Shown here: piece by piece, positions 57,581 to 59,184 of the stretch | Layout: each line of letters begins with the position of its first letter | How positions within the stretch are numbered: the stretch's first letter is position 1 | NCBI GenBank assembly: GCA_937911505.1 | Contig: CALEMF010000113.1 | Location: 1-64,000, forward strand | Length of the DNA stretch: 64,000 nucleotides | Origin: an uncultured Cytophagales bacterium | GTDB taxonomy: Bacteria; Bacteroidota; Bacteroidia; Cytophagales; Thermonemataceae | Reading direction: 5' to 3' | Translations under genes and position numbers: made by a program | Notes under the pieces: model-generated | Database searches by the model: none | What the model was told of the DNA's origin: nothing | Seen by the model: only the letters and a program-made list of their open reading frames with translations

Positions 57581-57951
57581 GAAAGAGGAAGTTGTCCTAT
57601 CGCTAGTAGCTTTTGCTACTAGAGGAAAGTCCGGGCAACATAGAGCAGTGTACTTCCTAACGGGAAGGCGTTCCTTTGGTGACGAAGTAACGACAGCCAG
57701 TGCCACAGAAAATATACCGCCAAGATGATTGGTAAGGGTGAAAAGGTGGAGTAAGCGCCCACCGCTTGACTGGTGACAGGCAAGGCAGGGTAAACCTTAC
57801 ACGTTGAAAGATTAAATAAGCCAGTGCTTAAGGGCGGCTCGTCCGATGCTGGCGGGTAAATCGATCGAGCTTTTTGGTGACAAGAAGCCTAGATAAATGA
57901 TAGGAACCTGATAAAAAAGGTACAGAACCCGGCTTATAGACTTTCTCTTTT
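57581..57951 (+). ncRNA. rnpB: RNase P RNA
   Basis: The conserved 5' core GAGGAAAGTCCGGGC (P4 region) and the 3' core ACAGAACCCGGCTTA, about 290 bases apart, with GCCAGTGCCACAGAAA-like J regions between, identify bacterial type A RNase P RNA. The ends AAAGAGGAAGT and ACTTTCTCTTT pair to make P1 and fix the limits. It cuts 5' leaders from tRNA precursors. Confidence 0.93.
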
Positions 57952-57968
57952 AATTTTTTATTTCGCTT

Positions 57969-57996
57969 GCAACCCTTTTAAAAAATCGCGGGTCAT
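57969..57996 (+). promoter_or_regulatory. ECF-sigma-like promoter 1
   Basis: GCAACC (57969-57974), then 17 bases, then GTC within GGGTCAT (57990-57996). The same pair with identical spacing recurs at 58371 and 59006. The form fits an ECF-sigma -35/-10 pair. It lies 64 bases before the 43-codon gene. Confidence 0.5.
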
Positions 57997-58059
57997 ATAC
58001 ATAGAACGCGCCATTGAATTAAATTTTAAAGACAAGAACGCAGTAATAAATTAGTTATT

Positions 58060-58191
58060 ATGAAAATAGAAATTACCAGAAGTAGCGATGCAAAAGGCAG
58101 AGCAAAATTAATGGATCGTATTCTTTCACTAGCAGAGTTGATACTCCTACTCATTATAGGTCTATCTATGTTATCATTTTTACCAGCCTAA
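58060..58191 (+). CDS. 43-residue single-helix membrane peptide
   Basis: ATG to TAA encodes a basic, polar start (MKIEITRSSDAKGRAKLMDR) and a hydrophobic helix (LSLAELILLLIIGLSMLSFL). It stands between an ECF-like promoter and a hairpin that begins at its stop codon, which supports a real gene. No family known to me. Confidence 0.5.
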   Translation: MKIEITRSSDAKGRAKLMDRILSLAELILLLIIGLSMLSFLPA

Positions 58192-58219
58192 GAAGCCATG
58201 CTCTAAGAGGGTGGCTTCT
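58191..58219 (+). terminator. Hairpin at the stop of the 43-codon gene
   Basis: AGAAGCCA pairs with TGGCTTCT around a 13-base loop. There is no T run, so termination may be weak. Confidence 0.45.
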
Positions 58220-58314
58220 TAAAAAATGAGCCCAAAATACAGGTACATCAAACAGATTGTACTGGAGAACATTTTATCCTTATCTCAAACTTTAAACACC
58301 TACCTATCCAAGAG

Positions 58315-58344
58315 AAACTCTCCCCTCAGGAGAGTTTTTTCTTT
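58315..58344 (+). terminator. Intrinsic terminator
   Basis: AAACTCTCC with GGAGAGTTT (5-base loop) followed by TTTCTTTTTT, a strong plus-strand terminator. No gene larger than the 43-codon one precedes it, so the transcript from promoter 1 probably ends here. Confidence 0.75.
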
Positions 58345-58370
58345 TTTAATGAGGGAAATTTTTATGACTT

Positions 58371-58398
58371 ACAACTTTTCTTTAAAAGTGAGGGTCAT
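58371..58398 (+). promoter_or_regulatory. ECF-sigma-like promoter 2
   Basis: ACAACT (58371-58376), 17 bases, then GTC in GGGTCATCTATAC. The -35 is one base off the other two copies, the -10 side is identical to copy 3. It lies about 130 bases upstream of the lipoprotein gene at 58529. Confidence 0.45.
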
Positions 58399-58528
58399 CT
58401 ATACAAACGTCAATATAGTGTAGTCTTTAAGGATGTGTTGAAAAACAAGCTATTATGTTGAACTAACACCCAACTCATCTTACTATAGACTCCTAACTAT
58501 TTTCTAAATTTTAAACTTCAAAACGCCT

Positions 58529-58969
58529 ATGAAAACGCCTTTACTAACCGCTTTTACGATTATTTTTTTGTGCTTGTCAGCTTGCCAAGACCAAAACTCT
58601 ACTTTCACACCTCTCAATACTTCAGGAGAAGTTTGGTCATTAGTAAGTTATGAACCCACCAATATGGTATCTGATGTAATATCTAAATCATCACAACAAT
58701 TCTCGCTTGAGCAGGTGACTTGGCAATTTGACACAAGCCAAAATCAAGTCACCATACAAATTCAATCAGGTATAAACTTCGATCTGTTCGAAGAAGGTAC
58801 CTATGCCTACCGTATTGAGCAGATTGAAGGGAGTAGTGGAGAAGTTATCTACATCAATGATCAATATTTTGGATCGTACAAAGAGAACAGTAGAGAACTA
58901 CTCATTAGTAACATAGCTGCTGATGGTCCAGTAATGTGGTTTGTAAAGCTTAACCAGCAAAAAGATTGA
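58529..58969 (+). CDS. Lipocalin-like small lipoprotein
   Basis: 146 residues. Signal peptide with lipobox CLSAC, then an all-beta-looking body: GEVWSLVSYEP, VTWQFDTSQNQVTIQIQS, GTYAYRIEQI, RELLISNI and VMWFVKL. The W(S)L..Y, F(D) and T(Y)AY spacing is typical of the small lipocalin-like lipoproteins of Bacteroidota. Driven probably by promoter 2. Function unknown. Confidence 0.7.
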   Translation: MKTPLLTAFTIIFLCLSACQDQNSTFTPLNTSGEVWSLVSYEPTNMVSDVISKSSQQFSLEQVTWQFDTSQNQVTIQIQSGINFDLFEEGTYAYRIEQIEGSSGEVIYINDQYFGSYKENSRELLISNIAADGPVMWFVKLNQQKD

Positions 58970-59005
58970 CCTTCTTTAAAAAATTACAATTTATTTCAGG
59001 TGCTT

Positions 59006-59033
59006 GCAACCCTTTTAAAAAAACGTGGGTCAT
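59006..59033 (+). promoter_or_regulatory. ECF-sigma-like promoter 3
   Basis: GCAACC (59006-59011), 17 bases, GTC in GGGTCATCTATACAA. The 21-base stretch from GCTTGCAACCC through the A run also occurs at 57966. No gene follows on the plus strand before the terminator at 59148. Confidence 0.5.
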
Positions 59034-59037
59034 CTAT

Positions 59038-59184
59038 ACAAGAGCAAATAGTAAACTGGATATTGGAAGTACTCAAACTTCCGGTGATTTAGTAAAAGCA
59101 CTCATTATTATTCAGCACTATTTTCGTTGTAAGTAATTTAGGATGGGAATCTCTCTATCGACTTTCGTAGAGAGATTTTTTTTG
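59038..59184 (+). ncRNA. Candidate small RNA between ECF-like promoter and terminator
   Basis: From promoter 3 to the terminator is about 147 bases without a useful reading frame; the only ATG (59143) opens 14 codons into the terminator. It contains a small hairpin (GGAAGT...ACTTCC) and the repeat AGCACT. Promoter, size and strong terminator suggest a regulatory RNA. Not seen before by me. Confidence 0.4.
59148..59184 (+). terminator. Strong intrinsic terminator
   Basis: AATCTCTCTA pairs with TAGAGAGATT (10 bp, 10-base loop) and is followed by TTTTTTG. It ends the candidate RNA; on the minus strand it can also stop purL. Confidence 0.8.

Follow-up and report, generated by a model that had tools for sequence, protein, structure and literature searches.

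The analyzed window, a 64,000-nucleotide stretch from the genome assembly of an uncultured Cytophagales bacterium, carries on its forward strand the gene for the class A RNase P RNA (rnpB, 57584..57952; Rfam RF00010, 291.7 bits), followed by three forward-strand elements of the form TTGCAACC-N15-GGGTCAT that start at 57967, 58369, and 59004. The original prediction described these as ECF-like promoters with GCAACC-N17-GTC spacing at three sites within 1.1 kb, each accompanied by a small gene or a terminator. Both the spacing and the accompanying features (a 43-aa ORF, a lipoprotein ORF, a terminator at 58312-58348, and a hairpin with a U-run at 59148-59183) are borne out by the sequence. However, GGGTCAT, which had been placed after N17, begins after N15, and the second element, credited with one -35 mismatch at 58371, reads ACAACT, with two.

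Candidate promoter 1 (57967..58001, +; TTGCAACCCTTTTAAAAAATCGCGGGTCATATACA), recovered by motif scans and by a scoring matrix and retained upstream of peptide homologs in four relatives, precedes a gene for a 43-aa single-pass membrane peptide (58060..58191, +; MKIEITRSSDAKGRAKLMDRILSLAELILLLIIGLSMLSFLPA), whose transcript would end at a predicted intrinsic terminator (58312..58348, +; terminator prediction and fold). A stable hairpin (58189..58221, +; fold z-score -5.1) overlaps the stop codon region of the peptide gene; it is followed by an A-run instead of a U-run, and is thus no ordinary terminator. Candidate promoter 2 (58369..58403, +; TTACAACTTTTCTTTAAAAGTGAGGGTCATCTATA), also supported by the motif scans and the matrix, has a weaker -35 element (TTACAACT) and precedes a gene for a predicted 146-aa lipoprotein with the lipobox LSAC (58529..58969, +). 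No relatives of this protein were found in 118 genomes and no match in Pfam, and its structure model has a mean pLDDT of 44. Candidate promoter 3 (59004..59038, +; TTGCAACCCTTTTAAAAAAACGTGGGTCATCTATA), a perfect match to the motif, begins 35 nt past the lipoprotein stop codon and precedes a predicted small RNA of ~140 nt (59040..59183, +) that contains no sizeable ORF. Elements 1 and 3 share 13 of their 15 spacer bases, suggesting a local promoter duplication, so that the three elements are probably not independent events. Participation of rnpB in the functional circuit was considered and rejected because no RNase P signature lies near the peptide genes of relatives; it is treated here as a neighbor only.

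No terminator was found between the lipoprotein stop codon at 58969 and element 3 at 59004, and the lipoprotein transcript should therefore extend to the hairpin and U-run revealed by fold analysis (59148..59183, +), which would be common to the lipoprotein and RNA transcripts. The region 59040-59183 thus probably doubles as the 3′ UTR of the lipoprotein mRNA, and element 3 would yield the ~140-nt RNA from within that 3′ UTR. The arrangement is MicL-like in that the RNA would have a promoter of its own close to a gene's 3′ end, share that gene's terminator, and lack a sizeable ORF.

Motif specificity and the associated ECF sigma factor gene

The distribution of the motif in the 5.0-Mb source genome was assessed by pattern scans; at 93% completeness, the assembly may lack additional sites. 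The extended pattern TTGCAACCNTTTTN12GTCATNTATA, at up to three mismatches, has three matches in the window against 0.01 expected from shuffles, and the same three sites are its only matches in the entire genome (control, 0). In contrast, the bare form GCAACC-N17-GTCATNTA at three mismatches is not rarer than chance (16 matches, with 15 expected), which places the signal in the extended motif TTGCAACC...GGGTCAT. A genome scan with TTGCAACNNTTN12GGGTC at no more than one mismatch returned four sites, namely the three window elements and a single additional site, C49:22805, in front of an ECF sigma factor gene; the remaining matches all carry two mismatches and do not rise above the control. All four sites share the fixed spacing TTGCAACC-N15-GGGTC, and an N16 spacing control produced no site in the source genome at one mismatch or fewer (order-wide, it produced 16 one-mismatch sites, none of them from the source genome).

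The link to this sigma factor was also approached through relatives, where the motif scan located it immediately upstream of ECF sigma genes in three genomes from two other families. The ortholog in the source genome, C49:22877-23416 (63% identity to the query), is preceded by the element TTGCAACTTTTGGATAAGTTGCAGGGTC, which ends 44 nt before the ATG. Carrying out the genome scan suggested with the original prediction thus points to an ECF sigma gene that is itself preceded by the element. The encoded protein of 186 aa consists of regions 2 and 4 only (Sigma70_r2 and Sigma70_r4_2). The element also occurs upstream of orthologous sigma genes in several families, and among named genomes, mostly Cytophagales, the form T(T/C)(G/C)CAACC-N15-G(G/T)GTC is often found at this position. 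The Raineya genomes have an orthologous sigma gene without the element, although their peptide gene has one, and autoregulation is therefore not universal. A scoring matrix trained solely on the promoters of the orthologous sigma gene in other species ranks exactly the three elements at the top of the window, with scores of 29.3, 29.3, and 20.7 and the next site at 15.9. Among 100 Markov-simulated windows, the best site per window had a mean score of 13.9 and a maximum of 22.1; hence, the two strong elements exceed every simulated window, whereas element 2 is surpassed at least once.

The sigma gene and a second ORF overlap by ~20 nt, and an overlap of a sigma and an anti-sigma-like gene is present in most orthologs examined. 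The product of the second ORF has a conserved layout, with a short conserved N-terminal segment, one transmembrane stretch, and a long C-terminal part that gives a weak beta-barrel match. Such an organization is typical of an ECF sigma factor paired with a membrane anti-sigma factor. No anti-sigma match was found in Pfam for this protein, and, judged from layout only, the second ORF would encode the cognate anti-sigma factor. Within C49:18000-28000, the sigma gene is clustered with genes for LptD, N-acetylmuramoyl-L-alanine amidase, and MlaD, all of which are envelope genes; the MlaD-amidase neighborhood is confined to the source genome, while MlaD alone also occurs near the sigma gene in G005, a member of the same family. 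Three further ECF genes, on contigs C16, C47, and C28, have GCAACC-type -35 boxes ~70-80 nt upstream but differ in their -10 boxes, a pattern suggestive of autoregulated ECF paralogs that form a family and are distinguished by the -10 element.

Conserved peptide and lipoprotein targets in relatives

In the same family, G005 has a sequence almost identical to element 1 upstream of the gene for the peptide MKISLSTNHQKSMTMKKILDFVEVALLLAIGFTMMSFLPS, and an HMM built from these two peptide sequences detected homologs in G003, G006, and G007 and, more weakly, in G001, for a total of five same-family genomes. The exact element precedes the peptide gene in G003, G005, G006, and G007; the G001 variant is without it. 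Because the sigma-locus sequences of G003 and G007 are identical to those of Raineya orbicola and Raineya sp. SKYG86, respectively, the family is that of Raineya. Over the last 22 codons of the five promoter-linked peptide genes, pS exceeds pN in all 10 pairs. A glutamate before the hydrophobic core, a central glycine, and a C-terminal proline are kept in all six peptide sequences, and the ending SFLP is invariant in the five that are promoter-linked. On these comparative grounds (homologs under the same promoter in four relatives, pN below pS, and the SFLP ending), the 43-aa ORF is a real gene. No family for the peptide was found in Pfam or NCBIfam. HMM matches outside the family were set aside, as they lie mostly within long ORFs and have weak E-values. 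Two g3 genomes have neither the peptide nor a close sigma ortholog. In three Raineya genomes, a shared stretch like AGTAAAAACACACCTTTTGCGTAA lies between the peptide stop codon and a CCTGCAA...TTGCAGG terminator; as judged from this sequence conservation, it is a conserved 3′ UTR of the Raineya peptide transcripts.

In the order-wide set of 391 genomes, 69 sites match the exact pattern TTGCAACC-N15-GGGTCNT, whereas the reversed control pattern matches 7. Judged by a crude ORF map, 56 of the 68 exact sites examined are intergenic, and several of the others directly precede a gene, for a lipoprotein or the sigma factor, with a reading frame that stays open further upstream. Within the window's own family, the seven exact sites are without exception intergenic, whereas the seven one-mismatch sites are all located in genes. 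Order-wide, the exact sites occur mainly in front of lipoprotein genes and of the sigma gene: a lipobox test is passed by 30 of the 52 downstream genes that encode 80 aa or more, against a background of 10.7% among other ORFs (odds ratio, 11; Fisher p ~1e-14, a value made too small by relatedness among the genomes). An FKBP-type PPIase lipoprotein and a DUF4397 lipoprotein are among the targets. A conserved lipoprotein of ~125 aa in another family of the order has the promoter ~90-125 nt upstream in every genome examined.

Proposed circuit, alternatives, and related systems

Taken on sequence evidence, these observations make it likely that a single ECF sigma factor, the product of the gene at C49:22877, recognizes all three elements as promoters; this gene forms an overlapping operon with the gene for a membrane-anchored, anti-sigma-like protein. 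The proposal that a single sigma factor serves the peptide, the lipoprotein, and the RNA, already contained in the original prediction, is well supported comparatively by the promoter of the sigma gene, the conserved peptide, and the bias toward lipoproteins. It was considered whether the elements might instead be ECF promoters read by one or more paralogous sigma factors of overlapping specificity, since the source genome has ~25 Sigma70_r4_2 matches and one of the three other ECF genes with a GCAACC-type -35 box continues with TGTCAT at a spacing one base shorter. However, the -10 boxes of these paralogs differ (GCATCT, TGTCTA, and TGTCAT), GGGTC at the same spacing is found only at the C49 site, and the C49 orthologs of other species carry GGGTCAT, which together render assignment to a paralog improbable. 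The spacer identity between elements 1 and 3 and the crowding of all three elements into 1.1 kb could also be expected if the elements were copies of a small mobile or locally repeated sequence without promoter function. Yet the columns that are conserved coincide exactly with those of sigma-gene promoters from other species, in which the spacers differ, and four other genomes have kept the element in front of the peptide gene despite diverged spacers, leaving very little probability for this explanation.

A more serious alternative concerns the third element, which might be a duplicated promoter devoid of a functional RNA product while promoters 1 and 2 are functional. Element 3 resembles a recent copy of element 1, and the ~140-nt RNA has no Rfam family match (a match to rnk_pseudo was rejected as far under its gathering score) and no credible homolog in the 391 genomes, where only matches of chance size were obtained. 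On the other hand, the promoter is perfect, the RNA folds better than its shuffles (z-score, -3.5, much of which is due to the terminator) into a hairpin, a linker, and a strong terminator, and the genomes searched for homologs include no second member of the same genus. An RNA without function at this position is accordingly regarded as a substantial possibility, only somewhat less probable than its opposite, and 59040-59183 is retained as a predicted small RNA without conservation support.

With the elements read as promoters of the C49 sigma factor, the three promoters beside rnpB and the promoter of the sigma gene probably form one small circuit. Its targets belong to the envelope, as indicated by the lipoprotein enrichment across the order and by the membrane peptide and lipoprotein in the source genome, and the inducing signal would presumably be envelope stress. 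The anti-sigma-like protein would sense an envelope defect and free the sigma factor, which would then raise expression of its own operon by autoregulation and turn on three short transcripts together, for the peptide, the lipoprotein, and the ~140-nt RNA. The peptide would probably reside in the inner membrane, the charged N-terminus facing the cytoplasm and the SFLP tail lying at the periplasmic face, and probably act by binding a membrane partner. A bolder and rather doubtful version of this scheme can be offered tentatively: a lipoprotein-specialized Cytophagales ECF sigma factor may here have shrunk to a four-promoter circuit, whose conserved output would be a new SFLP peptide feeding back on the anti-sigma protein or an envelope machine, and whose small RNA, derived from the lipoprotein 3′ UTR, would silence envelope mRNAs in a MicL-like fashion.

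For Bacteroidota, little is known about the promoter codes, regulons, and small RNAs of ECF sigma factors. ECF regulons that combine autoregulation, envelope targets, and a small RNA are of a known kind, the closest analog being Escherichia coli sigma-E (RpoE), whose envelope-stress regulon contains small RNAs including MicL, which originates from the cutC 3′ region. Common to both systems are an ECF sigma factor with a membrane anti-sigma factor (putative here), an autoregulated operon, envelope targets, and a small RNA (predicted here) whose promoter is located close to a gene's 3′ end. In contrast to sigma-E, the promoter sequence is different, the anti-sigma-like gene is not assigned as RseA-type, the genome has four sites only, and the conserved target in the family is a peptide. 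Within Bacteroidota, the SM6 promoters of Flavobacterium psychrophilum are likewise ECF-type and include an ECF/anti-sigma pair and a putative regulatory RNA, Rfp11; however, they have a CGT -10 box and serve mainly T9SS, band-7, and sugar genes, instead of the GGGTCAT box and lipoproteins described here (PMC9723704). SigP of Porphyromonas gingivalis is also an ECF sigma factor of ~190 aa that acts on envelope-associated genes, but it operates on T9SS genes together with the two-component system PorXY, and its proposed motif is unlike the GGGTCAT one (PMC4800418). No description of the motif or the peptide was found in the literature searched, the coverage of which was incomplete. The analysis brings together a specific motif, a likely sigma gene, an order-wide target set dominated by lipoproteins, and a conserved membrane peptide without a described family. 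As the whole predicted circuit comprises four promoters, it is completely testable, and the motif also predicts targets in cultured relatives. Three f4-family genomes each carry one of the order-wide exact sites ~240 nt ahead of a response-regulator gene, a distance that could accommodate a long leader or a small RNA.
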